From a virus: DNA of 64,000 bases. Below are positions 1 to 29,538 of the stretch, one piece after another. The translations under genes were made by a program, and so were the position numbers. The stretch lies in the IMG/VR virus record IMGVR_UViG_3300017752_000004, positions 1 through 64,000 of that record; one strand, 5' to 3'. The notes beneath the pieces are model-generated. The model did not search any database, was not told the DNA's origin, and saw only the letters and a program-made list of their open reading frames with translations. Every line of letters begins with the position of its first letter. Within the stretch, counting starts at the first letter, position 1.

Positions 1-38
1 ATATTCTTTCTTTGTTTCACAAGGGAGTGAGCTACAAC

Positions 39-461
39 ATGGTTAATTTGAAAAAACCAAATCAAAAATGGGACTCTATTGAGGAGTATGCAAAAGAAGA
101 GGCTCCTGATGAAATTCATTTAGTCCCAGAAATCGCTGGTGCTGGAGCGATTGCTGCTGCTGTTGCAGTTTATGCGGTTAGTGCAGTTGCAACTACTTTA
201 GGATTCGCTGCTGTTGGGGGTTTTTTAGTTAACCTTGCTATCGGTTTGTTAATACAAGGCGTTATGACTCTTCTTTTCCCTGTGGAGCTGCCGAAAACAT
301 CGGCTCAGACAACAGAGACAAGGATAGACACTTCTAGTTATATTTTTACAAATTTACAAAACAACGCTATTCAAGGTTTTCCTGTTCCTTTGGTTTATGG
401 GGAGCTGCGGATTGGTTCAAATATAATTGCCACGAACGTTGTTAGCGAGGATCTTGGATAA
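39..461 (+). CDS. Lambda gpI-like tail assembly protein
   Basis: Probable homologue of lambda tail assembly protein I, which acts with the tip protein J when the tail tip is built. The middle of the protein (about residues 36-85) is a long Ala/Gly/Val/Leu-rich hydrophobic stretch, and the C-terminus carries the family-type ending PVPLVYGELRIGSNIIA. The open frame extends upstream to a TTG at 12, but the ATG at 39 is preferred because AAGGGAG at 21-27 sits at a normal ribosome-binding distance. The stop overlaps the next start (TAATG), so translation is probably coupled to the J-like gene, the usual lambda order. Family assignment rests on order, size and the C-terminal motif. Confidence 0.72.
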   Translation: MVNLKKPNQKWDSIEEYAKEEAPDEIHLVPEIAGAGAIAAAVAVYAVSAVATTLGFAAVGGFLVNLAIGLLIQGVMTLLFPVELPKTSAQTTETRIDTSSYIFTNLQNNAIQGFPVPLVYGELRIGSNIIATNVVSEDLG

Positions 462-3400
462 TGAATTACTATAAGAAAATCCTACAACGCAAAAAAGCGA
501 TAACTATCGCTGGTTCAAAAGGAGAGAAGCCTTCTTATTTGATGCCTCCGTCTTCCGCGTTTGGTAAAGTCGGTTTTCAGATTTATGAAGCTTTGGATTT
601 ATTGTGCGAAGGTCCAATTGCTGGATTGGTAGATTATGAGGGTCAAATATTAAACCCAGGTCAGGTTGTTAAAGATTTTTCTAGCAACGAGAATGTTGTT
701 GGATTTTCTGATGGCGGCATAGATAAAGGTATATATTTTGACAATATACCCCTAAGAGAAAGCACTAATAAACCAACTGTATCAAAATATAATTGTATTT
801 TTCGAGACGGTTCGGAATTCCAAACCCGTTCAGAGATATTAGCTACCCCCCAAAGATTGCAAAAATATGGCGCAGCTATTAGAGGCGCTTGGGTAAATGA
901 AAATGGAGCTAGAGATGGTAGCGGTAGTTATGATACTAGAGGTGACCGAGATTTTGTTAATTGGCAAAATTATATACCTAGAGAAGTATTAGAAAAGCCT
1001 TTTTATTATGAAAATTACGACAAGAATGTCAATTTATTAAATATCGGATTGCAGGTTGACGGGTTATTTGATACAAAAAGTTATGCCAATAAATACGAAA
1101 GTTCGGGAGGGAAAAGCAGGCTTGGAACAAATTTGCCCGCCACAGTCACTATTGAAGTGACGGTAGGAAAAATCGACGCATTAGGCGCAGAGCACGAGGT
1201 GTCCTTCGCGTCTTTTACCACTAGAGCTGGCAAAGGAGTGACACTAGGAAAAGCAAACGGAAGAATAGCTATAACTGGAGTTATAACAGCGCCGTACACA
1301 TTTACTTTAGAGGGTATAAGACTCCCTGGTCTATTAGATACGGATGTTAATAGTTTTGTTAGAATCAAAAAACTTGAAGCGGAGACCACTTCCAGTATAG
1401 TAAAAAGAGAAATCGGCGTTAGTAATATTTCCGAAGTGAACTCAGAAACATACCTTTACCCAAATTCGGCTTACGTTGGAACAGCTATTGATTCAAAGTA
1501 TTTTCCTCAAGTCCCTAGTAGAACGTTTAAATTAAAAGGTAAAAAAGTTTTAATCCCAAGTAATTATTTTCCAGTAGATAACCTTTTATACGATAGGAGA
1601 TTTGCTGATGATGATAGTTCTGCTGGAAGAATTATATATGGAGATTTGTATTTTAATAATAAGAGTTCGGGCTCTGACTCTGGTGGAGTTTCGATAAATG
1701 ATGTTGAAGTAATTTTTTTAATAGATACTTCTGGCTCAATGAGTGGAACTCCATTGTCTCAAGTACAAGCATCAATTATTAATTCATTGAACGATTTAGC
1801 ATTGGCAGGGATGTCGGTAGATTCAATAGCTATAGTAGAATATAATTCTAGCGCTACTATAGTCGCTGATTACGGTACTAGCTTACCAGATATGATAACA
1901 GCGGTAAACAATCTTTCTGCTGGTGGCGGCACGAATATGACTTCGGGCTTACAACTAATACAAAACTCTCTTATACTAAGTACAGACAAAGCAAAATATA
2001 TTTTTGCATTAAGTGATGGCGATGTAGGTAGCGCGGCAATTGCCGCTCAGCCTTTAAAAAATGATGGTGTGGTTGTAGCTACTATGGGTATAGGTATATC
2101 ACCAGAAAGTTCCTCGGGTCTAGCTTTAGCTGCTGTCGCTACCCCAGAATATATTTACTGGGTTGATGGAGACATCCCGCCTAATTTTATTATAGATGTT
2201 TTGGGGATTTTTATAATAGGTTTAGGCGAGCGAGATTTAAACGGGACAGAGTTATCATCTAATAGAAATTGGGATGGCACATTTAAATTAGGTTGGACAG
2301 ATAACCCTGCTTGGATTTATTATGATTTATTAATAAACACTAGGTATGGAATAGGATCTTATTTAAGGGATGTCGGCATAGTAGATAAATGGTCATTATA
2401 CCAAATAGGTAGATATTGCGATGCGGTTAATGATAATGGCGAATTTGTAGGCTTAAGCGACGGGTTTGGAGGTTTAGAGCCTAGATTCAGTTGCAATATA
2501 ATGATTAAGGATCAGAATAGCGCTTTTGAAGCTATACAGGATATAGCGCGAACTTTTAGAGCTATGGCTTATTTTAGCAATTCTTTTGTTAATGTAAAAG
2601 TTGACAAGCCTTACTTCAAAGAAGGCAAGCCTAGCCCACAAGGACCACCATCAGAGTTAGAATTTGCGCCTCATTTGATTTTTAATAATTCAAACGTCAA
2701 AGGAGGAGCTTTTGCTTATGCTGATGTAGATAGAAACACAAAACTTTCTGCAGTAGAGGTTTCGTTCTTAGATAAGACTAAAAATTTCACATCAGCAACA
2801 GAATATGTCGAAGACACTGAGGCTATTAAACAAGTTGGGCTGAATTTTAAGCAGTTGGATGGAATTGGCGTCACTTCTAGGGGGCAAGCTCATCGTTTGG
2901 CTAAGTACATACTTTTTGAATCTTTATACACTACAGAAACTGTATCTTTCGGTGCTGGGCTAGAAGCTTTATTGATAGAGCCTGGGGATATTATAAGAGT
3001 TGACGACGAAATGAGAAATTTCAGCAAAAACTTTGGCACAGTAGTTGGCACTAGCGGAACTGTCTCGTATTATAATCCAAATGGATTGGGCGATTATCAA
3101 GAAGGCCCAGCAGCTATTTTGGTGGAACCCGCATTCAAAAGCGATCAATTCGAAAATCTAACTGGCGGAGTTTTAAATATATTTAATCCAATAGACATAA
3201 GCGGAACAGATCAGTTTGATCAATTTCCTGGTAAAATAAACCAAGATCTTTACAAAGAATTAAACAACCCGCAAACTATAAGTTTAAAAATAAACTCTGG
3301 AGGATCTGGCTTTAGTTATCAGCATACAGATAGCGGTGTTTTTATTTTCATAGACGAGCAGGTAACGGGTACGGCAGTTGGCGGTCTAGGCAATGCTCCT

Positions 3401-6100
3401 AGCCAATGGTTCTCTAATGACGAAGCAAACACTGTTTTTGGTTCTTCTTATAGCATAGACGTGAGCGGAAGAGAGCCTAAATATTTTAGAGTACTTGGCA
3501 TTAAAGAAGATGCTGAGATGGGTTACAACGTAACCGCTACGATTCACCACACTGGTAAATTTAAATTTGTAGAAGAAAATACCATTTTTGATGTAAACCC
3601 AGACTCTTTCCAGCCAGATTTAATTACTACCCAGCTAGTTAAACCAAATCCCCCAAGCAGTGTAACCACTGGAGCTTTTTCGCAAAATTTAGATGCATCT
3701 TTGAATTTGTCATTAAGCATTGGCGATCCAGCCACTAAAGTTGGAGACAGGTATGTAGTATTTATCGAGGAGCCGAATACGAATATAGTGGTTGCTGAAT
3801 TTAATAAAAGCGCCACTTCAGTTACAGATGTTGTTTTGTCTGGAGCTGCTAGGATAGATCAAATAGGTTCTTATCAAATTAATGTATTTTCAGAGCTATC
3901 TACATCTACTACAAAAATAAGAAGCGATTTAGCCACAACAACATCTTTTGTTACTGAAGCGGCTGATTTTAATTTTAATTCAGTAACTAATTCTTTTTTA
4001 GACTACAGCGATATTTCTATTAATACTTCATATGAAACCTCTTTTAATAATTTGGAAAACGAAGGTACTGGGCAAGTTTCCTTTATAGAAAACGACAGTG
4101 CGATAAATGCAACTTTTAATTTGTCTTTTGAAGATATTTTTGGCGGCCAAGGGGCTGAAGTTATACAGAGCATATCTGGGCAAGTTATTAATTTGAAGGA
4201 CCATAAGGGTGATTTAATTAAAACAGGTTTTAAACTTTTACAAAAAGAAGAATTTTTCTCTGTTACAAATGAAGAATTAAATATTGCGTTTGGTTATACT
4301 GGGGAAGGCAAGTATAGAATGCCTCCGAATTTGGATTTTGAAGTTGGTAGTTTTTTACTTAGCGGAAGTGGGGATTTAACAACCAATCAATTTATTTCTT
4401 TTGATCAGCCGTTTTCTGGATCTGAATCTCTAGCTGTTTTCACTTCTCAGTTGATAACTGGTGAGTTTGAAAATAACTACGATAAAATAGGCAGAGTTAT
4501 TTCTGCTAGTGGCGGTTTTTATGTTACTGGAACTTCAAGTTCGACCAGTAATCATGTATACATAGCCACTAAAACTGGTAATTTTACATTTGATAATAAA
4601 AAAGATAGAATTGAAGTGGGCATAACAACAAAAAATAATGAATCTGGCTATCGCTTTGTAGAGTTCTCAGAAAATTTTGATTCTATTCCAGAGGTTTTTA
4701 TACAATCACAGGAACCTGAGATTGGCGAAGAGAGTTATTTTTCAGAAACTTCTGTAACTGGGGTATCTGTCAGCGGGTTTTACTTTAACTCTTTTCAGGG
4801 TGATTTATCTCCTGCTAGCGGCACTGGCTCATTTGCATATTTATGCACAAATCAAAATATTTTTAATGTAGCTGATTCTAGTGATTTACCTGTAGGAGTT
4901 CTAAATTATTCTTGTACTGGAGAATCTGATTTTAATTTGAATGTAGACAGTATTTTAGAGCAGTCAAATGGCACAAATAACACTGGATACAGATTTAATA
5001 ACGACCAATACGCTGTTCTTTGCCAGCGATACGGAGATGATGAATTGTTTGAAAATAGCTTTTTTGCAGTTCAATCAACTGGAGATGGAAAGAATAAAGT
5101 TTCCGAGCATGTTTTGCAAACTGGGTCTGATATTGGCGCATCTGGATCTATCATTAATGCCGATTTTCCTGACAACGCTTATAGTTTATTTAATGCTAAC
5201 GGAAATGTAAATCAATTTGTTATAGATGGAGTTAATGATGCAAACGTGACTGGATCTTTCACTTCGAAGCAGATTACCGATGGCACATTGTTATCCTACG
5301 CTGCTGGAGGCGATATCCGCGTTAGTAAAATATACGACCAGTTTGGAAATAAAGACGCTATTCAAGACATCACAGGCATCCAAGGTAAGATAGTAACTGG
5401 TGGATCTATGGTGACCTTGGACGGTAAGCCAGCTTTGGATTTTGTCAGAACAGCTACAGGGCAGAATAATGCTGTTTATTATGAATTTAGCGGAAATAGC
5501 CATATTACTGGAGTAAGCGGTCTTGAGATTTTTGCCACTGTATCTTTTGATACTGTAAATACTACATTAAATCCTTTAGCTTCGTATCAGGGAGATTATA
5601 TTGTCGGAGAGACCAAAAACCTTGCAGTAGGCGACGTGGGCTTTGGAGCTGGCAAAATAGGAGGAACACCTTATCAATACCTATATGAAAAACATGGGTC
5701 GGCTAATGCATTTGGTGGTTTTGATTTCCCTGGAGATGTAACTAAAGACGGTTGGGGCATCACTGGCAATGAAATATCTTATGATACAAAATATGTATTA
5801 AACAGTTTTGTGGGTTTTGATGATTCGGCCGCTTCTGGGTTTAGGGGTATGACTTTTGATGGGTCTTATATATCTGGTTATACAGTGACAGGGCAAAAGA
5901 ATAATATTATTGGTACTATAGGGTCTGATCAAACTCATGATAATAGTTTTGATGGAAAATTTCAAGAAGTCTTGATCTATAAAAACGTTCAACCAAACTC
6001 AAGAGAGAAGATTAGAAAAAACGCACTGTACCGATCAAATGAAGGCTCAACAAACCCGAATTTTAATTTTATACAAATAGGAGTAACTGGAACATTATGA
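461..6100 (+). CDS. J-like tail tip / host specificity protein with inserted vWA domain
   Basis: Central tail-tip attachment protein related to lambda gpJ, expected to contact the host receptor; at 1879 residues it is much longer than lambda J (about 1130). The J core is recognisable around residues 610-790: WDGTFKLGWTDNPAW, then NTRYGIG, DKWSLYQIGRYCD and EPRFSCNIMI. A von Willebrand factor A domain lies immediately before this core, about residues 416-590, with all three MIDAS elements: DTSGS from D422, T491 in GGGT, and D519 in LSDGD. The C-terminal third is beta-rich; about residues 1585-1879 resemble the AYSL and concanavalin/LamG-like carbohydrate-binding modules of phage fibres. The next gene starts inside the stop codon (ATGA). 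J is certain from context and core motifs; the vWA call rests on its complete metal site. Confidence 0.9.
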   Translation: MNYYKKILQRKKAITIAGSKGEKPSYLMPPSSAFGKVGFQIYEALDLLCEGPIAGLVDYEGQILNPGQVVKDFSSNENVVGFSDGGIDKGIYFDNIPLRESTNKPTVSKYNCIFRDGSEFQTRSEILATPQRLQKYGAAIRGAWVNENGARDGSGSYDTRGDRDFVNWQNYIPREVLEKPFYYENYDKNVNLLNIGLQVDGLFDTKSYANKYESSGGKSRLGTNLPATVTIEVTVGKIDALGAEHEVSFASFTTRAGKGVTLGKANGRIAITGVITAPYTFTLEGIRLPGLLDTDVNSFVRIKKLEAETTSSIVKREIGVSNISEVNSETYLYPNSAYVGTAIDSKYFPQVPSRTFKLKGKKVLIPSNYFPVDNLLYDRRFADDDSSAGRIIYGDLYFNNKSSGSDSGGVSINDVEVIFLIDTSGSMSGTPLSQVQASIINSLNDLALAGMSVDSIAIVEYNSSATIVADYGTSLPDMITAVNNLSAGGGTNMTSGLQLIQNSLILSTDKAKYIFALSDGDVGSAAIAAQPLKNDGVVVATMGIGISPESSSGLALAAVATPEYIYWVDGDIPPNFIIDVLGIFIIGLGERDLNGTELSSNRNWDGTFKLGWTDNPAWIYYDLLINTRYGIGSYLRDVGIVDKWSLYQIGRYCDAVNDNGEFVGLSDGFGGLEPRFSCNIMIKDQNSAFEAIQDIARTFRAMAYFSNSFVNVKVDKPYFKEGKPSPQGPPSELEFAPHLIFNNSNVKGGAFAYADVDRNTKLSAVEVSFLDKTKNFTSATEYVEDTEAIKQVGLNFKQLDGIGVTSRGQAHRLAKYILFESLYTTETVSFGAGLEALLIEPGDIIRVDDEMRNFSKNFGTVVGTSGTVSYYNPNGLGDYQEGPAAILVEPAFKSDQFENLTGGVLNIFNPIDISGTDQFDQFPGKINQDLYKELNNPQTISLKINSGGSGFSYQHTDSGVFIFIDEQVTGTAVGGLGNAPSQWFSNDEANTVFGSSYSIDVSGREPKYFRVLGIKEDAEMGYNVTATIHHTGKFKFVEENTIFDVNPDSFQPDLITTQLVKPNPPSSVTTGAFSQNLDASLNLSLSIGDPATKVGDRYVVFIEEPNTNIVVAEFNKSATSVTDVVLSGAARIDQIGSYQINVFSELSTSTTKIRSDLATTTSFVTEAADFNFNSVTNSFLDYSDISINTSYETSFNNLENEGTGQVSFIENDSAINATFNLSFEDIFGGQGAEVIQSISGQVINLKDHKGDLIKTGFKLLQKEEFFSVTNEELNIAFGYTGEGKYRMPPNLDFEVGSFLLSGSGDLTTNQFISFDQPFSGSESLAVFTSQLITGEFENNYDKIGRVISASGGFYVTGTSSSTSNHVYIATKTGNFTFDNKKDRIEVGITTKNNESGYRFVEFSENFDSIPEVFIQSQEPEIGEESYFSETSVTGVSVSGFYFNSFQGDLSPASGTGSFAYLCTNQNIFNVADSSDLPVGVLNYSCTGESDFNLNVDSILEQSNGTNNTGYRFNNDQYAVLCQRYGDDELFENSFFAVQSTGDGKNKVSEHVLQTGSDIGASGSIINADFPDNAYSLFNANGNVNQFVIDGVNDANVTGSFTSKQITDGTLLSYAAGGDIRVSKIYDQFGNKDAIQDITGIQGKIVTGGSMVTLDGKPALDFVRTATGQNNAVYYEFSGNSHITGVSGLEIFATVSFDTVNTTLNPLASYQGDYIVGETKNLAVGDVGFGAGKIGGTPYQYLYEKHGSANAFGGFDFPGDVTKDGWGITGNEISYDTKYVLNSFVGFDDSAASGFRGMTFDGSYISGYTVTGQKNNIIGTIGSDQTHDNSFDGKFQEVLIYKNVQPNSREKIRKNALYRSNEGSTNPNFNFIQIGVTGTL

Positions 6101-6990
6101 GGTTTAATGAAACAATAATTGGTCTTCACCCAGCATCGTCTGGGTACGAGCTTGAATGCTTCGTGCAGAACAACCAAGACTCAGATTTCTTGAGTGGATC
6201 TGGCTCGTTCTTAGTCGAATTCCCTAAGTTTACTGTTACTGGGCTTGAATTTAGAGGGCAAAATATAGTTTTTGAGCCCACTGGGGCAGACTTGCAGTTG
6301 ATGTCCGATATAGAGGTAATTGAAGACTTAATTGAATTGAGATGCTTCTTTTCTGGAGATTTAAATGGGGTGACTGGGCTCGCTAAAGAGAACATAAAAC
6401 TACTAGATGTCTTCACTGGGGACTATGCCGAATTTCAGCCAGACGTAATTGGTTTAACAAATTATGTCAAAGGCGGCTCTGTTAATGTAGATAAAAATGA
6501 TCAATTTATAACCTTTAATGTACTCGATTTAGATATACAAACTGGGGTGCAGAATATATTCTACAAAGTTATTCCGCTGGATTACTTAACTTTTGGGGAG
6601 TCTTCAGATGAGGCAAGTGGAATACTGTTTACTGGTTTCGACTCTTTTACCACTATAACAGAAACCGAGGCTATTATTGACAGATCTAATGCAAATGATT
6701 TAAGATTTTCTGCTAATGCTGGCATTATCGATATTTTCACAGGCACTAATATTGTTTTAACGGAAAATATACCTTTAGATTTCTCAGCTTCGTTTAGAGT
6801 TAGAACGACCTCAGAGCCGATTTCTATTTCACAAAGCGGAGGAGCGACACTACGAAGCAGCTCTTCCTCTTTCCCAGTTAGTGCTGGCGTTGTTACAATT
6901 CCCGCTGGAAATGAATTAGGAGAATTTTCAATCGATTCTTTATTGGACGTAAATGGGCAAAGAGAGGCTTACATTATATCTGAGCTGTAA
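6097..6990 (+). CDS. Tail-tip associated protein of unknown function
   Basis: I do not recognise a family. The protein has 297 residues, begins in an ATGA overlap with the J-like gene and is therefore probably co-translated with it. The sequence is rich in Thr, Gly, Phe and acidic residues and looks all-beta, like phage fibre or tip accessory proteins; repeated short segments of the type TGLEF, TGVQN and FTGFDSFTT resemble the beta-sandwich modules in the J C-terminus. Its last 22 bases overlap the end of the convergent acetyltransferase gene on the other strand. A role as a fibre or tip subunit is inferred from position only. Confidence 0.6.
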   Translation: MRFNETIIGLHPASSGYELECFVQNNQDSDFLSGSGSFLVEFPKFTVTGLEFRGQNIVFEPTGADLQLMSDIEVIEDLIELRCFFSGDLNGVTGLAKENIKLLDVFTGDYAEFQPDVIGLTNYVKGGSVNVDKNDQFITFNVLDLDIQTGVQNIFYKVIPLDYLTFGESSDEASGILFTGFDSFTTITETEAIIDRSNANDLRFSANAGIIDIFTGTNIVLTENIPLDFSASFRVRTTSEPISISQSGGATLRSSSSSFPVSAGVVTIPAGNELGEFSIDSLLDVNGQREAYIISEL

Positions 6991-7448
6991 AACATATCTG
7001 CCTCTAATTTGAAGCCATTTTTTTTATAAAATTTTTCTATCTTAGGATTTTTCTCGCTATTGCCTACTAAAATTATTTCAAATTTGTATATATTTTTTAT
7101 ACACTCTAAACTTTTTTTAAATAATTTAATGCCATAGCCTTTTGTCTTGGGGTCGGATACCCACATATATTCTTGTATAATTTTTTTATTAACTCTAGCG
7201 TCATAAGTTTTTAGCCATACTATATAACTAACTAATTCGCCATTAACAAAGTATCCGAAACAAAAACAATCTTTAAATCTTTGCGGGTTAGAAAAATAAG
7301 AGGTAATAGAATACAAGTTCACTTCACATCCAAAATGAGTATGCTTGCCTATTTTAGCATACATTTCTTCTGTTATCGAAACTAAGTCTTCTATTACCTC
7401 TATTTTATAGAGGCCGTTTTTTAAACCAGCTTTAGGAGTTTCCGACAT
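6969..7448 (-). CDS. GNAT-family N-acetyltransferase
   Basis: A 159-residue protein with the GNAT layout: an early alpha/beta part, the strand segment IIQEYMWVSDPKTKG leading into the acetyl-CoA loop KGYGIKLF (about residues 116-123), and the C-terminal FYKKNGFKLEADMFY segment typical of the family. It would transfer an acetyl group from acetyl-CoA to an amine; the substrate is unknown. It is the last gene of a leftward operon, overlapping the annealing-protein candidate upstream by 28 bases. Its end overlaps the convergent tail gene, so there is no room for an intergenic terminator. Confidence 0.75.
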   Translation of the reverse strand: MSETPKAGLKNGLYKIEVIEDLVSITEEMYAKIGKHTHFGCEVNLYSITSYFSNPQRFKDCFCFGYFVNGELVSYIVWLKTYDARVNKKIIQEYMWVSDPKTKGYGIKLFKKSLECIKNIYKFEIILVGNSEKNPKIEKFYKKNGFKLEADMFYSSDIM

Positions 7449-8179
7449 TCTTTCGCTGGGACATCTTTGTAATCTTTCCAGGTCTTGATGACTTCTGGAT
7501 CGTTCTCGTATTTACCGTCCGCATAAAGCTTACGCAGCTTAGTTAGAAAAGAATTGAAGTCTGTACCTACTTTCTCTTTTAAAATGCCTTGTGGGCTAAT
7601 ATCCTTCGCTCCAGAGGATGACGGCGGAGTTACGATAGGAGCTTTATTATTAGACGAGTCAATTTCGTCCGCTCCGACAATGTAAATGCCCAAGAAATTA
7701 CGGACAGCACGAACAAAAGCGCGATTTTCTGCAATGCATTCTAAAAACTTTGCAGCAAAACCATTTGTATTGCGAAGTGTGGCGTTAGCAACGGAGGAGG
7801 ACTTCGCACCATGACTACCGAAAGGTTGTGTTGGGTTTTCATAATTGCAAATAAAAGTGATCACGCACTTGACGACAGATCTCTCTTCGGAAGACTCAAC
7901 AACGTCATAATCAACAGCGTCTATACCCCTAAGCTTCGCAAGCTCTTTAATCCCACTAAGCTTAATTAAAAGTTGGTTATCTTCTAGCCCTTCAATAGAT
8001 TCTGGGACGGGCATCTTGCGCATCTCAAAGTGGTCTTTGTTTGGGTATAGGTGTTCTGGACTAATCATAGCTCGCCAGTTGACGGAGCCATCTTTATTGA
8101 ATTTGTAATCAACAGACTCTAGGAGTCCATGTTCGTCGCGCTTCCAGAGATCTGGGCCGTATAATTTATTATTCTTCAT
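7421..8179 (-). CDS. Putative single-strand annealing / Rad52-like recombination protein (Sak3-type)
   Basis: This 252-residue protein resembles phage Sak3/Rad52-like annealing proteins in layout. A beta-rich region with VKCVITFICNY is followed by a helix, residues about 145-168, reading CIAENRAFVRAVRNFLGI, the counterpart of the AETKALGRAL-type helix of that group. A disordered Ser/Pro linker (about 178-195) leads to a short helical C-terminal tail, possibly a partner-binding region. Such proteins anneal complementary single strands in phage recombination, which fits a genome that also has a RecA-like protein and two ssDNA-binding proteins. The identification is tentative; it could be another DNA-binding protein with the same helix. 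It overlaps the glycosyltransferase gene upstream by 11 bases. Confidence 0.5.
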   Translation of the reverse strand: MKNNKLYGPDLWKRDEHGLLESVDYKFNKDGSVNWRAMISPEHLYPNKDHFEMRKMPVPESIEGLEDNQLLIKLSGIKELAKLRGIDAVDYDVVESSEERSVVKCVITFICNYENPTQPFGSHGAKSSSVANATLRNTNGFAAKFLECIAENRAFVRAVRNFLGIYIVGADEIDSSNNKAPIVTPPSSSGAKDISPQGILKEKVGTDFNSFLTKLRKLYADGKYENDPEVIKTWKDYKDVPAKECRKLLKLV

Positions 8180-9296
8180 ATAGGTATAAACTTTCTAATT
8201 CTTTAGATGAGGCATCATCATAAACAAAGTTATGAGATTTGTCAAGTCTATTTGCGGAAGATTCTGAAGAGTATGTATCGCTATTAGATATGAACAGCTT
8301 CTTTGAAAAGAATTTCTGGCTATTTATTTGTTTTTCGGGCTTAATGTCTTCTATAATATCAAAATCAAAATATTTGAATCTTACGTCTGAAATGTTCTCT
8401 TTATCCTCGCAAACAATCAAAAGTCTAATTTTTTTGTTTTTAATAAAATTAAAAAACTCATTCAAATCTAAGTCGTTGTGGCATTTTTTATATTTAAAGA
8501 TAATTTGCTTTATATTGGTAAGCGCATTTATAATCTTGACGTCGAAATGTTGTTCAATATGCAGGTTCACAATACAAGTTTGACACCACTTAATAATGTG
8601 ATTGATGTCAAAATGAATATCCGCTCTGATATTTACAGGTTTTCCTTGTAGTTTTTGAGAGAAGGCAAAAAAGTTTGGGACAATCTCTACGCATTCGTTG
8701 TGAAAATGCTTACCTATTTTGATTGTTTTAAATTTTATTTCATTTAAGATACCTAATTGATCTAAAATGTTTTGAGCTATTGCTTCTGGTTTGATTTCGT
8801 TTATTCTATCGCAGGTAGCGCTAAACGAAGGTTTTATTTCAGAAAAATCTGGAGAGATGCTGATGGACTTATTTTGCTTATGCCAAAGGGGTTTTGAGTT
8901 TTCTGGATATAAGTTGAAATGCACAATTACACAGGGTACGTCATAAGCTCCTGCAATATGTCCAGGAAGACTATCGCACCCAACATGTGTCGAAGCTTTT
9001 TTGATTATATAATTCATTTGCTTGTAAGTTGATCCCAAAAAACAATAATCTACGCCTTTAATTTCCTGTTCGTCTGGGCCTCCTATTTGGATGATTTTGA
9101 CCTCCTCCTTCTGTAGATGCGGTTTGATTAGCTCCAGCACGATATCCCAATATTTGTACACAGCCCCAGGCATCTTATTGGAAGATTGTATGGTGATATA
9201 CTTATCAGGCAGACCTGGAAAAAAATGGTCAGTTATTTGTGGGCGGCCAATTTTAACCCCCAAATCTTTTGCGTAAACTTCAGCTATATGACTCAT
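8169..9296 (-). CDS. C-terminal half of a GT9-like glycosyltransferase with extra C-terminal domain
   Basis: Residues 1-185 look like the second (donor-binding) Rossmann domain of GT9 glycosyltransferases (the ADP-heptose:LPS heptosyltransferase family): YITIQSS, then VKIIQIGGPDEQ, the conserved ASTHVGCDSLPGHIAGAY segment and CVIVHFNL. The matching N-terminal domain is absent here but appears at the C-terminus of the protein encoded at 9683-11371, so the GT9 fold is split across two genes with a third gene between them. Residues 186-375 form a separate domain rich in Ile, Lys, Asn and Phe that I do not recognise. Its start overlaps the DUF6165-like gene by 17 bases. An active enzyme would need the two halves to assemble; this is inference. 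Confidence 0.65.
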   Translation of the reverse strand: MSHIAEVYAKDLGVKIGRPQITDHFFPGLPDKYITIQSSNKMPGAVYKYWDIVLELIKPHLQKEEVKIIQIGGPDEQEIKGVDYCFLGSTYKQMNYIIKKASTHVGCDSLPGHIAGAYDVPCVIVHFNLYPENSKPLWHKQNKSISISPDFSEIKPSFSATCDRINEIKPEAIAQNILDQLGILNEIKFKTIKIGKHFHNECVEIVPNFFAFSQKLQGKPVNIRADIHFDINHIIKWCQTCIVNLHIEQHFDVKIINALTNIKQIIFKYKKCHNDLDLNEFFNFIKNKKIRLLIVCEDKENISDVRFKYFDFDIIEDIKPEKQINSQKFFSKKLFISNSDTYSSESSANRLDKSHNFVYDDASSKELESLYLYEE

Positions 9297-9693
9297 ATGA
9301 TTTTACCTCTTTGATTTCTGAATCCGAAAGCATGTTTATTTCGCTCTTAAAAGAAAAACGCATGTCGTTGGCGTGATAAACGTCTCTGGCCAATCTAATA
9401 AACTCTGGGCCAAAATCTTTTTCACGTTCCATTTTTCTTATACTATCTTCGATGATCCATAATGACCTATTAAGTTCAAAGAGGTCAGCTTTCAAACTGA
9501 TAAGTTTGAGAGGGTCCAGATTTGCAAATTCTTCATTTTTTAATATAAGACGTTCGTAGAGTTCTTTTAATTGGTTATACTCAACTGTAATATTTTTGAG
9601 CTTTTTGGGATCGAAAATCATTTGCATTTTAATCTCCAAAATAGTTAGTTTATCAATCAACTCTCCAACTGATATAGGTATTTTAATTTTCAT
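9280..9693 (-). CDS. DUF6165-like small protein
   Basis: The opening MKIKIPISVGELIDKLTILE and the later LWIIEDSIRKMEREK and ARDVYHANDMR segments match the pattern I associate with the DUF6165 family, small helical proteins often found beside glycosyltransferase genes. The function is unknown. An open frame extends back to 9780, but that part lies inside the upstream glycosyltransferase gene, so the ATG at 9693 is chosen; it overlaps that gene by 11 bases. The gene lies exactly between the two halves of a GT9-like enzyme. Confidence 0.65.
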   Translation of the reverse strand: MKIKIPISVGELIDKLTILEIKMQMIFDPKKLKNITVEYNQLKELYERLILKNEEFANLDPLKLISLKADLFELNRSLWIIEDSIRKMEREKDFGPEFIRLARDVYHANDMRFSFKSEINMLSDSEIKEVKSYESYS

Positions 9694-11371
9694 GTAATTT
9701 AAATTGTGTTTTTGCTTTGCCGTTATGGTGGTAATTGATAAGAACCTGAGTTCCATAATGAGGCAAGAAAGCCATATCAAATAACCCTTTATATTCGCCC
9801 TTTCCTTCTAGAAAATGCAGGTTATCAATTTCTTTTGTGTAGGGTAATACTTTATAAACTTTTGGGTGGTCCTCAATGTAGTCAAAGAATTGGTTTTTTG
9901 TGAAAACGTAAATGTCGTGATCGGGGTAGAGATCTTTGAGGTTATCCATTAAAGAGTTCAACCATAGAACGTCACCAGCAGATCCAGGCATTACGACAGC
10001 TATTCGTTTTCCACTATCAAGAAGGTCTTCTAAATTTAAACCATTTTTTTCTCCACCAAAATCATAATCATAATCTATACTAGGCATAGCATCAAGGATT
10101 GATTCTAATTTTTTACCAACAGCGGTTGTTGAATAATTCTCAACAGTCCACTCTCTGGCTTTTTTACCCATTTCACGAAGCTTGTTTTTGTCCATTTGCC
10201 AAACTTTTTTAAGTTGCTTTGCTATGCTTGATGGATAGGTGGAGGCTTTAATAAATTGCGTACCTGGCTCTCTGTATTCTGACCAATCAAGAGCAAAGCT
10301 ACCACATTCTCGGCTAGAGGAATCTTCGCCACAGGAATAGTTAGTGACAAGAGTAACTAGTTCGGTCATCTTAGCTTCAAAGATGGGTATTTCCATACCG
10401 CCACTAGTAAATGGGTGGCAATAAACATCCATTAGGTTGTAAATTTCATTAAGCTGAGATTCGTTGACTCCAGCTTTGACGTTGGTAGTGTTAAGAGATT
10501 TCTCGGTTCCGCAAAATCTGCATTTCTGTCCCTGCCCAACGAAAGATTTAACTTCATACCGACCACAAGCAGAACAAAAATAAGTAGTAAGGATATCATT
10601 TGGGTTAATATCTTTTTCTTTTATAAGTCTAGGGATATCCCAACCTTCTGACCAGTGAGTATGCAGAAGGAGTTTTGCTTTAGGGCAATCTTTTTTAAAT
10701 ATTTTAAAACCCTCCAGCAAATTGGGTACGCTTTTTCTAAGTTGATTTCTAAATACAAAGCCAATAATAAATTCATCAGACAATTTGAATTTATTCCTAA
10801 GTTCTTTGCGATACACTTCGCTGTGTCTATAAAAATCCTCAGTGTTTACAGTGCCGTGTAAAGTGTCAACGTGATCGTGACCCATTTCTTTTAAGTCTTT
10901 CTCTGCGAAGGAAGACCATGTATAAAAGTTTTTTGTTTTACTCGCCGCTTCAATAGCTTGTGGCAATATGGGTTGGCTATCTAAGGTAGTCCAGATCATA
11001 TTATTGATCTTATTCCACCAAGGCTTTTCCCAGAACTTACCAAAAGCCCAAATATCTTCTACGCCTAAATAGATGTCTGGTTTGTATTGCTTTATAGCTT
11101 GGTCTATTGTCCCTCCGCCATAGCCAGCTTCGCGAGCCTTTTGGGGGTCTGCATTAAGCTGACGTAACGCTGCTTGGTTATTGGTAAGAGAACCTTGCGC
11201 TTGCCACGGCCTTGTTTTTAAAGATGGATCATCCCACTGAGTACCATTAGCAAATTCAATCAGCTCATACTTTTTTGTTGAATAAAGGTGGCGGAGTATA
11301 TTCTTTGCGTTTTTGCCAAATCCTGTAAACGCTTTAGCTCCATTTGAGTGGAATAATACCTTCTTTTTCAT
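9683..11371 (-). CDS. GT-B glycosyltransferase (GT4-like) fused to N-terminal half of a GT9 domain
   Basis: Residues 1-425 form a GT-B glycosyltransferase of the GT4 type: an N-terminal Rossmann part (KKKVLFHSNG), the acceptor/donor linker FIIGFVFRNQLRK, and the C-terminal donor site with HPFTSGGMEIPIFEA. A four-cysteine zinc-ribbon-like insertion is visible at C266-x2-C269 and C284-x2-C287. From about residue 455 (KRIAVVMPGSAGDVLWLNSL) the protein continues as a typical N-terminal GT9 domain, which stops at residue 562; the rest of that fold is encoded at 8169-9296. The ATG overlaps the stop of the Whirly-like gene upstream (TAATG). It probably adds sugars to a host glycan, phage DNA or a virion protein; the acceptor is not evident. 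Confidence 0.78.
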   Translation of the reverse strand: MKKKVLFHSNGAKAFTGFGKNAKNILRHLYSTKKYELIEFANGTQWDDPSLKTRPWQAQGSLTNNQAALRQLNADPQKAREAGYGGGTIDQAIKQYKPDIYLGVEDIWAFGKFWEKPWWNKINNMIWTTLDSQPILPQAIEAASKTKNFYTWSSFAEKDLKEMGHDHVDTLHGTVNTEDFYRHSEVYRKELRNKFKLSDEFIIGFVFRNQLRKSVPNLLEGFKIFKKDCPKAKLLLHTHWSEGWDIPRLIKEKDINPNDILTTYFCSACGRYEVKSFVGQGQKCRFCGTEKSLNTTNVKAGVNESQLNEIYNLMDVYCHPFTSGGMEIPIFEAKMTELVTLVTNYSCGEDSSSRECGSFALDWSEYREPGTQFIKASTYPSSIAKQLKKVWQMDKNKLREMGKKAREWTVENYSTTAVGKKLESILDAMPSIDYDYDFGGEKNGLNLEDLLDSGKRIAVVMPGSAGDVLWLNSLMDNLKDLYPDHDIYVFTKNQFFDYIEDHPKVYKVLPYTKEIDNLHFLEGKGEYKGLFDMAFLPHYGTQVLINYHHNGKAKTQFKLHEN

Positions 11372-24811: not shown

Positions 24812-25164
24812 TTAAATAGTTCTTTTGTGTTCTTTGGTTTATTATCCACTGGAACGTAGTCGTTTCCAGTCTTTTCTCCTAAATCGAACGTACCGTATTT
24901 AGATAGATCAGCTTTAAAATTGAAATTTCTCCATTTTCTGTCCATCGGCTTTACTAATGGTTGGGAAACGATGTACGCGAGACTGTCGTACTTCTTGGGG
25001 AATGTAGCTACCTCTAAGAACTCCAATGAGTATCTATCTTCAAGGTCCTTCAAAAGCTTCATTTCTCTAGCCCAAAAAAACCTTTTACCGTTTTTTGGTA
25101 CATCCACCAATCTTTCAATGACGGCCTGTCTTCTTTTATGCGGAGTTAGCTTTTTTGATGTCAT
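24808..25164 (-). CDS. Unknown protein coupled to the RecA-like gene
   Basis: A 118-residue protein with a basic N-terminus (TSKKLTPHKRRQAVIERL), a helical middle (REMKLLKDLEDRYSLEFLEV) and a C-terminal part beginning PKKYDSLAYIVSQPL. I do not recognise it. The frame opens at a TTG at 25170, but the ATG at 25164 is preferred. It overlaps the end of the dehydratase gene by 29 bases and the start of the recombinase by ATGA, so it may be a recombination accessory, by context only. Confidence 0.6.
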   Translation of the reverse strand: MTSKKLTPHKRRQAVIERLVDVPKNGKRFFWAREMKLLKDLEDRYSLEFLEVATFPKKYDSLAYIVSQPLVKPMDRKWRNFNFKADLSKYGTFDLGEKTGNDYVPVDNKPKNTKELFK

Positions 25165-27220
25165 TTTCAACCATCCTACGAACTAGTGTAGCAAAGTCAA
25201 CACTTTTTTCCCAATTTAAATCTTTTTGAGCTTCAGATGGATCTCCCAGTAAAAGTTCAACCTCCGCTGGCCTATAAAAGTCTGGGTTTACCTTAACTAA
25301 AGAAATCTCAGATGTAGATTTTCCAAGAAGATTAAATTTTTCATCTACCCCGCTGCCGCTCCAAGAGCCTTTAATGCCAGCGTTTTCGAAAGCTAACTCT
25401 ACAAACTCACGCACCGTATGGGTTTCCCCAGAAGCCAGAAGATAGTCTTTTGGCTCATCTCCGTTCAGCATTAACCAAACCGCACTCACGAAGTCTTCTG
25501 CGTGGCTCCAATCTCTCTTGGCGTCCATATTGCCTAACTCAAGTAAATCAAAGTCGAGATCACCTTCAGATAGACATTTAGAAATTCTAGCCACAGCTTT
25601 GGTAATTTTTCTAGTTACAAACTCTTCTCCCCTACGCTCTGAATTGCCAACTTTAATTTTACCCACTCCGCCAGAAAAGTAACCCGTCTCAGTTTCAATA
25701 TCATATACAAAGCAGTCTTCCACATCTCTAGCTATTGTTTTTTTAATTTCTTTCTTATTTTTTAGTAAATGGACGCCCTTTTTAGAACCACTTAATAAAT
25801 TGACTTGATAATAAATTTTTTCATTTTGTTCAAAAACATTTATATTAAAATCTTTATTAGTTATTTCTTCAAAAATTAAAATTAACCCATGAGCCAAAAT
25901 TGGAGAATTAGTCTTAAAGGATGCCCAATTAACGTCCAGAAAATCGGGTTCTCCATTTTTTAAGCCATCACAAGCGTAATACGCCTTAAAGAACTCTTCT
26001 TTGCAATGTTTTCCACTGTTTAAAATATTATCTGGAACTTTTTTGTGCTTAGTCTTTTTGTCATATATCTCCTCCCTGTATGTTTTGCAAACTTTTGATA
26101 TGCCAGATACTGTAACTCTTTTAGAACCTTCTCCACCAAAACCAGATGGAGCATTTTCAATTCTGCATTTTGCATTAGAATGAGTTTGCTCTATACATTC
26201 AATAAAATCGTTCAAGATTTCAACGCTTTGATTTACAAACTGTATTTCATATTCGCTTACATAGCCATCGCCAACAAGATACCCTAGTATTTTGCATTGT
26301 TGAGGGGTTAAATTTATTTTTGAGAAAAGATTGGGTAATGATAAATGATCAATTTCGTCTTTGATTTTTAGTTTTTTGACTTGAGTTTTTTCTGCATTTA
26401 AAAACAAAGAATGATTAGGGGTCGTCTCTACGACTCCGTTTCTAGTGTTTGTTAAGACTAATTTTTGATTAGTTTTTTCTAGCGTATTTATTTTTTTTCT
26501 AGAAATAGCTTTGATGTTCACAAAAGATTCTCCATCCCAAATCTTTAAATTATCAAATTCTTTGGTAAGGATAGAATTTTCTTTCGATATATCTGCCCTT
26601 TCTGGCATTAAATTTCTAATATAATCTATTCTTATTTTTCCTTCCTTTGAAATCAATACAGGTGTATTTGCTGACAGGCATTCATGATTAAACAAATAAC
26701 CCTGAACAGCAAAAAGATCATAGGAATCCCGCCAAACTTTGACAATTTGTCTAGCTGCAACTTTTGACGCCCCATAGGGGCTTCTAGGTCTAGACGGGTG
26801 ATTTAAATCTTGCGGGCTATACGCAACATCGCCAAACTCTTCCGATGAACCAGCATTATAGTATTTACAATCAGGGCAGTACTTACGGATTGCTTCAAGT
26901 TGATGAAGGACTCCCATTGTATTGTTTTGAAAATGATTAACTGGCATTCTCCAGCTATTACCAACAAAAGAATTAGCAGCAAAATTAATAAAATAATCTG
27001 GCTTAATCTCCTCAACACAGGATCTAATGCTATGCTCATCCCCGAGATCCATTTCGACAAGCTCAAAGTTTGGGTCTTTAATATGCTTAATATTATCGTG
27101 ATTTGGAACACTTAATCTACGGATAGCTCCATAAACCTTACAGTCAGTGAATTTCAAAAGAAAGTCTGCCATGTATGATCCGACTTGCCCCGTTACGCCT
27201 GTTACTATTACTTTTTTCAT
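25136..27220 (-). CDS. gmd: GDP-mannose 4,6-dehydratase interrupted by an intein
   Basis: Converts GDP-mannose to GDP-4-keto-6-deoxymannose. The extein sequences join to a normal GMD: NAD-binding TGVTGQVGSYM from residue 7, the NFAANSFVG segment, SSEEFGD, catalytic YGASK (Y149, K153), then GYLFNHE followed after the intein by SERRGEEFVTRKITKA, the conserved NHESxRRG motif, and RDWSHAEDFV. Residues 181-526 are the intein. The spliced enzyme would have 348 residues, the usual GMD length. It sits with a DegT-type aminotransferase, an acetyltransferase and glycosyltransferases, which points to GDP-perosamine-type sugar synthesis. Confidence 0.95.
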   Translation of the reverse strand: MKKVIVTGVTGQVGSYMADFLLKFTDCKVYGAIRRLSVPNHDNIKHIKDPNFELVEMDLGDEHSIRSCVEEIKPDYFINFAANSFVGNSWRMPVNHFQNNTMGVLHQLEAIRKYCPDCKYYNAGSSEEFGDVAYSPQDLNHPSRPRSPYGASKVAARQIVKVWRDSYDLFAVQGYLFNHECLSANTPVLISKEGKIRIDYIRNLMPERADISKENSILTKEFDNLKIWDGESFVNIKAISRKKINTLEKTNQKLVLTNTRNGVVETTPNHSLFLNAEKTQVKKLKIKDEIDHLSLPNLFSKINLTPQQCKILGYLVGDGYVSEYEIQFVNQSVEILNDFIECIEQTHSNAKCRIENAPSGFGGEGSKRVTVSGISKVCKTYREEIYDKKTKHKKVPDNILNSGKHCKEEFFKAYYACDGLKNGEPDFLDVNWASFKTNSPILAHGLILIFEEITNKDFNINVFEQNEKIYYQVNLLSGSKKGVHLLKNKKEIKKTIARDVEDCFVYDIETETGYFSGGVGKIKVGNSERRGEEFVTRKITKAVARISKCLSEGDLDFDLLELGNMDAKRDWSHAEDFVSAVWLMLNGDEPKDYLLASGETHTVREFVELAFENAGIKGSWSGSGVDEKFNLLGKSTSEISLVKVNPDFYRPAEVELLLGDPSEAQKDLNWEKSVDFATLVRRMVENDIKKANSA
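25643..26680 (-). other. Intein with LAGLIDADG endonuclease in GMD
   Basis: In-frame 346-residue intein in GMD, residues 181-526. It begins with Cys1 (CLSANTPVLI), has the block B TxxH (TPNH), two LAGLIDADG-type segments (LGYLVGDGYVS and FFKAYYACDG), and ends VYDIETETGYFSGGVGKIKVGN before a +1 Ser. The penultimate residue is Gly instead of the usual His before the final Asn, an atypical but known splice-site variation. Insertion falls exactly between NHE and SERRG, a strictly conserved spot, as is typical for inteins. Confidence 0.92.
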
Positions 27221-27221
27221 A

Positions 27222-28034
27222 TTAAATAAATCTATTTTCTATATAGTAATTTGTTGGATGGTATATTTCTAGTTCTTTGTCTAAAAGTATTTTACCCCCA
27301 TTAGATATGATTTGAGAGCATAGCCCTTTAAAAGCTTCATTATCAAAATTCAAATCTTTAACATCAGAAGCTCTAACCAGGCAGCAAGATCCCACGGAAT
27401 CCATTTCCATATATCTTTCTTTCGTTAAATAATATTCTATATTATATGGGGGTTGGTTTGTCCAAGTTGATCCATTTTTGTTTTTGTAGGCCCATGTATC
27501 ATAGAAAACTTTTTCACTATTTAGTAATTTTCCATCTTTGCTTTTGACAAACCCACCTGGTCTCATAACCAATTTGGCAAATATTATTGGGGAAATTGCG
27601 GAGATTGTTTTATCTGATTCCATTTTTTCAACCAACTGATTTATGGTATCTTTTTGTGGAAAAATCAAATCCGATTCTGTCCATAAAATATAATCGGGGT
27701 TGAAATTTTTAGCAAAGGAAAAAAGCAGATTGGCTAAAAACCCAAGAGCATTAATTCTTTTAGCGGACGAAACAGACCTTACTGGACCAAAATCTAAATC
27801 GTCACTTAATTTCAAGAAATTGACATTCTTGTTCTTTTTTTGGTTAATTCTGATATGCCTCTCTGTCTCATCTTGAGAGTCGTTTTCTAGGACATTTATA
27901 GATAGATTAAAATTTTTATTTAAATTTTGTTTTTGCTCCTCAATCGTATTAAAAAAACGATTAACTTGATCCGTTTCTATGCTGTGCCAACGAACAGAGT
28001 CTTTAAAGAGGGAGCATATGGCTATATTTTTCAT
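27222..28034 (-). CDS. GT-A-type glycosyltransferase (Anp1/mannosyltransferase-like)
   Basis: A 270-residue protein with a GT-A layout: IAICSLFKDS start strand, NVLENDSQDETE, then FNPDYILWTESDLIFPQ, where ESDL takes the place of the metal-binding DxD, and VGSCCLVRASDV further on. This is the pattern of Anp1/Van1-like or related mannosyltransferases. It starts 11 bases after the acetyltransferase gene and ends 1 base before gmd, so it is in the sugar cassette and may transfer the sugar made by it. Donor and acceptor are unknown. Confidence 0.62.
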   Translation of the reverse strand: MKNIAICSLFKDSVRWHSIETDQVNRFFNTIEEQKQNLNKNFNLSINVLENDSQDETERHIRINQKKNKNVNFLKLSDDLDFGPVRSVSSAKRINALGFLANLLFSFAKNFNPDYILWTESDLIFPQKDTINQLVEKMESDKTISAISPIIFAKLVMRPGGFVKSKDGKLLNSEKVFYDTWAYKNKNGSTWTNQPPYNIEYYLTKERYMEMDSVGSCCLVRASDVKDLNFDNEAFKGLCSQIISNGGKILLDKELEIYHPTNYYIENRFI

Positions 28035-28045
28035 ATCAACGTATA

Positions 28046-28468
28046 CTAATTGCTGCCAATGAAAAGTCTAGAAAAATAATAACTCTTATCGCATTCTGAT
28101 GTTTTTGTGAATCTAAATTTTTTATACAAACCAACTGCTTCTGGGTTAAGCTTATGTACTGATAATTTTAAATTTATTTTACACTGGTCGGCGTAATTGG
28201 TTAAATAGCTCATTAGTTTTGTCCCATAACCTAATTTAACTTTAGATTCAACAATACATATTCCAAGCCAAACCGTTTCTCCATCTTTATCTAGGTGGCC
28301 ATAGCCAACTGGATTGTCGTCTTCATATAAAAGAATTGTAATTATATGGTTATTTAAAGAACCCAAATCTCTTGTATTGAAATATGTAAATGTATCAGAT
28401 GAGCTACCCATCTGTTCTATAAAAAGTTTTATGTCTTTATTGTTTTTGCCTACCTCTTTAAGCATCAT
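28046..28468 (-). CDS. GNAT N-acetyltransferase, sugar cassette
   Basis: A 140-residue GNAT protein: IITILLYEDDNPVGYGHL, TVWLGICIVESKVKLGYGTKLMSYL with the acetyl-CoA loop KLGYGT, and VHKLNPEAVGLYKKFRF, the usual family ending. It starts in an ATGA overlap with the DegT-type aminotransferase gene. In this setting the likely substrate is the amino sugar made by that enzyme (N-acetylation of perosamine), which is inference from context. Confidence 0.78.
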   Translation of the reverse strand: MMLKEVGKNNKDIKLFIEQMGSSSDTFTYFNTRDLGSLNNHIITILLYEDDNPVGYGHLDKDGETVWLGICIVESKVKLGYGTKLMSYLTNYADQCKINLKLSVHKLNPEAVGLYKKFRFTKTSECDKSYYFSRLFIGSN

Positions 28469-29538
28469 AGTACTTTTTTAACAACGTCGCAAATTTGTTT
28501 AATTTCGGCATCTTTTAATTCTGGAAAAGACGGAAGCATAATAACTTTTTTATTAACATCTGCGGCATTTTCGTACACCTCGTTTGAAGCGTAAGGTTTC
28601 ATAGAGTTGACTGGATAAAACATCGGCCTTGTGTCTATGCCTTTTTTATTTAAATTTTCTTTTATTTCCTTAATTTTTGAGGAGTATATGGCAAACATCC
28701 AATTGGAGTGTTTTGCACCAACTGTCGTTTCTTGTAATTTTAAATTTTCTCCAATAGAGGAATTAAGGTTTTCTCTGTATGTATTGAATACTCTATCTTT
28801 TTCTGATAAAATTTCTTTGATTCTAAGCATTTGAGCATAGCCTAGAGCAGCTTGTATATTAGTCATTCTATAGTTATATCCAATATCACCGTGAATGTAA
28901 GTCTCATCTTGAGCTTGCCCTTTTAGGTATTTAACTTTTTCAAAAATACTAGCGTCATTTGTGGTGATCATGCCGCCTTCGCCAGTAGTCAGATTTTTAT
29001 TGCCAAAAAAACTAAACGCCGCACACTTGCCAAGTATGCCTGTTTTTTCACCATTTAAAGATGCCCCAATAGATTCGCATGCATCTTCTATGCATAATAT
29101 GTTATTTTCTTTGCACCACTCATATATTTCTTTGCCACATGGGTTACCTAACATATGAACCAAGAAAACAGCTTTTGTTTTTTTTGTTACCTTCTTTTTG
29201 ATTTCGTTAAGAGATATGTTCCATGTATTTTTGTCTATGTCGGCTAGAATTGGCGTAGCGTTACAGTACTTAACTGCATTTGCGCATGCAATAAAAGTTG
29301 AAGCTGGGATTATAACTTCGTCCCCCCTCTTAATTCCATTGCTGAGTAGGGATAAATGACAAGCCGATGTTCCGCTATTCAAGGATACAGAGTATTTAGA
29401 TCCAATAAATTTACTAAATTCATTTTCAAATAAATTTACATACTCTCCTATGGAAGAAAACCAACCTGAGTCAACGGCATCTTGGAGAACGTCTCTTTCT
29501 ACTTTTGTTATCCAGGGTTTGTAAATTGGTATTCTCAT
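28465..29538 (-). CDS. DegT/DnrJ/EryC1-family sugar aminotransferase (perosamine-synthase-like)
   Basis: PLP-dependent nucleotide-sugar aminotransferase. Visible motifs: SLNSGTSACHLSL (cofactor phosphate loop), ADIDKNTWNI, CIEDACESIGAS with the PLP-contacting Asp (D152), and FSFFGNKNLTTGEGG with the Schiff-base lysine K181. Together with GMD in the same operon the best guess is GDP-perosamine synthase, which aminates GDP-4-keto-6-deoxymannose. Length, 357 residues, is typical. Start overlaps the SemiSWEET-like gene stop (ATGA). Confidence 0.9.
   Translation of the reverse strand: MRIPIYKPWITKVERDVLQDAVDSGWFSSIGEYVNLFENEFSKFIGSKYSVSLNSGTSACHLSLLSNGIKRGDEVIIPASTFIACANAVKYCNATPILADIDKNTWNISLNEIKKKVTKKTKAVFLVHMLGNPCGKEIYEWCKENNILCIEDACESIGASLNGEKTGILGKCAAFSFFGNKNLTTGEGGMITTNDASIFEKVKYLKGQAQDETYIHGDIGYNYRMTNIQAALGYAQMLRIKEILSEKDRVFNTYRENLNSSIGENLKLQETTVGAKHSNWMFAIYSSKIKEIKENLNKKGIDTRPMFYPVNSMKPYASNEVYENAADVNKKVIMLPSFPELKDAEIKQICDVVKKVL

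Follow-up and report, generated by a model that had tools for sequence, protein, structure and literature searches.

In lambda-like siphophages of Gram-negative hosts, recognition is usually credited to the C-terminus of the tail-tip protein J and to the side fibres. Lambda gpJ (8iyk, 8k35, 8xcg; PHROG_31) is homologous in its hub core and N-terminal region to the J-like protein described below, but has no von Willebrand A (vWA) domain. The addition of adhesion modules to tail-tip proteins, in the form of CBMs or of the Ig-like HDII-ins3 domain, is already known. The hub protein gp32 of Salmonella phage Jersey is J-like and carries its extra domain, HDII-ins3, in the lambda-like HDII-insertion region, as is the case here, and an antireceptor role has been proposed for it by its authors (PMC13243795). 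Its fold is Ig-like, however, whereas the present insert is a vWA domain, and the two are likened here at the level of the region. In the evolved Dit and CBM tail proteins of lactococcal siphophages, added adhesion modules are reported to help adsorption by the same principle, although these modules have CBM folds and sit in other tail proteins, not in a J-type hub (PMC10688798, PMC6669499).

The vWA domain itself has an adhesion role in the surface filaments of bacteria, as in the pilus proteins Mfa5 (6tnj), SpaC (6m48) and S. sanguinis PilB (PMC8179133); these are pili and not virions, and their domain organisation is unlike that of the present J. vWA domains are also listed in eCIS tail fibres (PMC12923769). 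No paper describing a vWA domain in J or in Mesyanzhinovviridae hubs was found in the open-access literature.

The window analysed here is a stretch of 64,000 nucleotides of viral DNA (IMG/VR record IMGVR_UViG_3300017752_000004, positions 1 to 64,000). At 461..6100 (+ strand) it encodes a J-like tail-tip (baseplate hub) protein of 1879 aa, which matches lambda J (8iyk) with E = 3.8e-48 in phmmer. The PHROG_31 profile 'central tail fiber J' covers residues 603-1122 (8.2e-108), and PF13550 (Phage-tail_3) lies at residues 684-852 (E = 4.3e-16, above the curated Pfam cut-off). The protein is thus of the lambda J type by homology of its hub core, and it is so by gene order as well: a gpI-like gene (PHROG_32, 6.7e-24) at 12-461, inside which the window starts, lies directly upstream, and in the relative L002 gpK/gpL-like ORFs, recognised by position and sequence, lie upstream of I and J.

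Several other genes may be recorded in passing. Near its L-K-I-J genes, L002 has at 3-1665 (- strand) two adjoining BspA-type leucine-rich ORFs with nearly identical heads, 'MADKKIS(Q/E)LTELTSA'. In the window, directly after the tape-measure gene, a 1302-aa protein is encoded at 40005-43913 (- strand); its match to the lambda gpM type is weak (PF05939, 1.4e-6, below cut-off), and it also has a PKD match and 12 DUF285/BspA leucine-rich stretches (4.6e-229), which gives it the look of a distal tail protein to which a large LRR adhesin has been fused. A GDP-mannose 4,6-dehydratase gene at 25136-27220 (- strand) is apparently split by a LAGLIDADG-containing intein (PF14890, PF14528), and a group of sugar genes at 8169-11371 and 27222-29538 (- strand) includes GT9-like and GT1 glycosyltransferases, a DegT/DnrJ aminotransferase and a weak CAP59-type match.

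The N-terminal part of J (461..1657, + strand), which comprises the head and the HDII-insertion-type region, ends in a '..IPSNYFPVDNLLYDRRF' linker, and its residue 372 aligns with residue 252 of lambda gpJ (8iyk). The hub core begins at N603-W604 (2267..3025, + strand, including PF13550), with residues 603-855 aligned to gpJ 259-490. About 230 residues of J therefore occupy the place of a six-residue loop in lambda gpJ, and by alignment the vWA domain within them is cleanly inserted between head and core, which agrees with its placement in the preliminary description. In lambda, the HDII-insertion domain with FNIII-A (72-215) precedes the insertion point (PMC10721106). Judging from the lambda papers and from the tolerance of the loop to inserts, it would lie on the outer surface of the tip.

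The vWA domain spans approximately residues 414-587 (1700..2221, + strand). Pfam VWA (PF00092) matches residues 417-545 (nt 1709-2095) with E = 5.7e-15 and 56.4 bits, against a cut-off of 23.8, and scores 45-49 bits in the vWA-bearing relatives; VWA_2 also matches above its curated cut-off (4.9e-12). The MIDAS is complete, and by this motif the domain is of the metal-binding type. It consists of DxSxS (D422-T-S424-G-S426, 1724..1738), constant in the four sequences compared save for G or A at position 425, of T491 (1931..1933) and of D519 (2015..2017, within ALSDGDVG), all on the + strand. The five residues D422, S424, S426, T491 and D519 are kept in the window and in all three distinct vWA-bearing relatives. 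The preliminary description had placed a DTSGS motif, T491 and D519 in a complete vWA domain of the tip protein, and the residues are where it put them.

The predicted structure leads to the same assignment. An AlphaFold model built on the four-sequence alignment has strands and helices alternating in vWA order in a Rossmann-like fold (mean pLDDT 67, most of the core roughly 70-88). Foldseek against the PDB returned 55 matches at E ≤ 1e-3, and the best 50 of the 55 are all of vWA type; those listed include PTMP1, with a zinc-occupied MIDAS, Mfa5, SpaC and the integrin alpha-M I domain with Mg (1ido), so the best PDB matches are vWA and integrin I domains, and the vWA fold assigned in the preliminary description is borne out by the model. 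The best PDB match by sequence is the pilus-tip adhesin Mfa5 (1.3e-5). In view of the E-values and of the presence of the domain in four distinct sequences on different contigs, the match is not a chance one, and an origin by assembly error is ruled out by the same four contigs.

The domain is missing from a near-identical J. In blastn, contig L085 matches the window along nt 1-1672 with 97.9% identity and along nt 2228-7206 with 97.7%, and lacks, in frame, the 555 nt in between (1673..2227, + strand), 9 nt being left; its J frame remains open from end to end. L085 retains the linker pieces VIYGDLYFNN and RDLNGTELSSNRNWDGT (YGDLYFNN...GTELSSNRNWDGT), which are otherwise found only in vWA-bearing J, while the nearest relatives without vWA have a loop of 8-10 residues there (FSSDGSTRGNQIYNGNWDGT). 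The kept linkers point to a recent derived deletion and not to the ancestral state, and on the best reading L085 has lost its vWA recently. As the J without it remains open, the domain looks dispensable in nature, on the evidence of one deletion in a metagenome assembly.

The loop was compared in 179 J-type open frames, of which bacterial genomes supplied 80 and viral (metagenomic) contigs 99, among them a few partial or second J copies. Large inserts occur at the loop in about 20-25 of the 99 viral frames (the range reflects partial frames; L080, a wrong motif hit, was left out) and in none of the 80 bacterial-genome frames, where no vWA-bearing J was seen either; because the sample consists of the best matches to the window's J, these are not population frequencies. 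Among the bacterial-genome frames, the single long value (L133) was on inspection a wrong motif hit, and six frames lack the search motif, yet the short loop is visible in them.

The MIDAS vWA occupies the loop in the window and in three distinct contigs. Other contigs carry other inserts in its place: a family of ~239 aa (L034, L039 and others), a family of 213-243 aa (L007, L044, L059 and others) and inserts of ~455 aa (L056, L062). The ~239-aa inserts resemble a degenerate vWA in their first motif, 'VFxVDQNxN', but Pfam VWA gives E of 0.016-0.03 in only two of nine, and hhalign against the vWA was negative. Their model is of low confidence (pLDDT 46), with Foldseek matches that are mostly vWA at TM about 0.3-0.39. 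The inserts of the L007/L044/L059 type have no match in Pfam or the PDB, their LamG/ConA-like appearance being a sequence impression, and neither they nor the ~239-aa inserts have a match in cultured phages. The best reading of these data is that the loop is a domain-insertion hot spot, where modules of several kinds, vWA among them, can replace one another and where vWA can also disappear. This recurrent insertion site is the main addition to what is known. A separate observation concerns L007 and L058, each of which has two J-type ORFs on one contig, with a large loop insert in one and none in the other.

The vWA domain also changes faster than the protein that carries it. In L002, L087 and L090, which together with the window make up the only four distinct vWA-bearing J sequences found in the clade, the domain is 56-67% identical to that of the window, whereas the J cores are about 95% identical. 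The dN/dS values for the same pairs are 0.29-0.56 for vWA and 0.06-0.13 for the core. Positive selection on vWA (dN/dS above 1) was not found in the pairs compared; as the values are below 1, the domain is under purifying selection overall, and some of its rapid change may be due to relaxed constraint. The change is unevenly distributed: outside the MIDAS loops 55 of 139 positions of the domain are invariant, and within these loops 20 of 23 (p = 2e-5).

Silent differences between the window and L002 are in excess in two places. The second half of vWA has 18/51, and J residues 1525-1770, a variable C-terminal stretch (5033..5770, + strand), 57/167 silent codon differences, against a background of 99/1144 (p = 3e-7 and p = 1.2e-16, respectively); in the first half of vWA silent divergence is not raised (p = 0.15). 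Such an excess points to recombination, in this one pair, as the means by which the C-terminal tip of J and a portion of the vWA were exchanged.

A second hub lineage also carries the domain. With the vWA as query, tblastn against 50,697 phage records reached no lambda-type J with vWA; its only matches were tail proteins of the Bordetella phages FP1, CN1, CN2 and MW2. In the FP1 protein the vWA (residues 132-242) is followed by PF13550 at residues 360-527 (8.1e-8), and in the alignment of FP1 with its relatives it stands directly before 'MNPAHIIRECLTD'. A MIDAS vWA is found likewise in the YuA-type hubs of R6L, Bhz59, Elanor, PaMx28, Mallos and a Variovorax phage, while the PaMx11 hub has nothing at the site. 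The preliminary description knew of no J protein with such an arrangement; none was found among the lambda-type J of cultured phages, but YuA-type hubs do have it. Like the window J, the latter (Bordetella FP1/CN1/CN2/MW2, PaMx28, Xanthomonas Elanor/Mallos, Erythrobacter R6L) combine PF13550 with a MIDAS vWA, placed just before a conserved 'NPA-I' segment; unlike it, they belong to a distant hub lineage, and their vWA is about 28% identical to that of J. They are annotated as tail or virion structural proteins, in MW2 once as 'von Willebrand factor type A'.

The pairing by hhalign of the YuA segment with 'NPAWIYYDLL' of J is co-linear over 215 columns and weak (E = 0.03), and an equivalent site in the two kinds of hub is supported by PF13550 downstream in both. 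Between the two lineages, hhalign pairs the vWA profiles with 97% and E = 7e-11; any two vWA families may give good profile matches. Since most examined members of both lineages are without vWA, separate acquisition or transfer appears more likely from the sequences than common inheritance. Three further YuA-type hubs (L190, L192 and L193; Sphingomonas Eidolon and Lucius, Pseudomonas SCUT-S3) have non-vWA sequence at the vWA site.

Our main reading, to which we assign a probability of roughly 0.6, takes the vWA domain for an accessory adhesin that depends on metal, can be exchanged and sits in the insertion hot spot of the J hub. Insertion in a loop, apparent dispensability and variability among close relatives, which characterise an accessory adhesion module, are all found here. 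A host-contact module is indicated by its presence in some J and absence from others, by fast change around near-invariant MIDAS loops, by partial exchange, in one pair, along with the C-terminus and by replacement at the same place. The domain would be a module plugged into a permissive loop of the hub protein, and since lambda J is a trimer, three copies per tip would be expected around the closing cone. D422, S424, S426, T491 and D519 would hold Mg, Mn or Ca for ligand contact, and each copy would most likely bind an acidic group of a host-surface ligand, either a protein or a charged glycan. The tip may thereby be kept on the host surface ahead of receptor engagement by the C-terminal part of J or during it, and the predicted adhesin could in this way improve adsorption. 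The preliminary description had proposed metal-dependent adhesion to a host surface protein; its adhesion part fits the loss, fast change and replacement of the domain, while the metal, and a protein as the ligand, are presumed.

The near-invariance of the MIDAS loops amid a variable remainder is also what a fixed partner within the virion would produce. The MIDAS might thus bind a virion protein, such as a gpL-like hub partner, a side fibre or a decoration protein, and serve for docking or stabilisation instead of acting as an adhesin. Many bacterial vWA domains mediate the assembly of protein complexes. Partners of the gpL type are, moreover, close to the site in the hub (PMC10721106). Against a contact of this kind stand an L085 J that is otherwise 97.7-97.9% identical in DNA and lacks the domain, relatives in which unrelated inserts or a short loop replace it, and the single pair in which part of it was exchanged along with the C-terminus, and we regard it as rather unlikely.

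The loss in L085 also speaks against an integrin-like switch, in which a ligand at the MIDAS would move the C-terminal helix of vWA, help the tip to open and trigger DNA release. Among the closest structural matches are integrin I domains, which are known to be allosteric. The insert also follows the HDII-insertion region, and HDII-ins1, HDII-ins2 and HDII move when the lambda tip opens (PMC11101478). The domain is absent, however, from L085 and from almost all homologues, which implies that the tip trigger works without it, and there is no sign of coupling in the data; the switch that the preliminary description had offered beside adhesion is therefore improbable. That the domain is a captured neutral passenger under relaxed constraint, without significant function, is less probable still, for although its dN/dS is above that of the core and it has been lost naturally, dN/dS stays well below 1, the MIDAS residues are invariant in four sequences and present in YuA-type hubs too, and a vWA was also inserted at the equivalent site of that other hub lineage.

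The accessory-adhesin reading may be extended, speculatively and with low confidence, to a general role. The loop before the core would then be a docking slot for host recognition in both lambda- and YuA-type hubs, into which vWA was acquired more than once, and the J vWA and the C-terminal tip would be a matched, co-exchanged pair, that is, a two-part host code; in its strongest form, the vWA would be a metal-gated trigger of tip opening as well.

If the main reading is true, host recognition would have a second site, namely a hub loop in which whole adhesion domains, metal-dependent ones of the integrin type among them, are taken up, altered and lost. This could account in part for the adsorption range of uncultured phages. 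The cultured phages PaMx28, Elanor and R6L already carry the YuA-type version, and the question is therefore open to test now.
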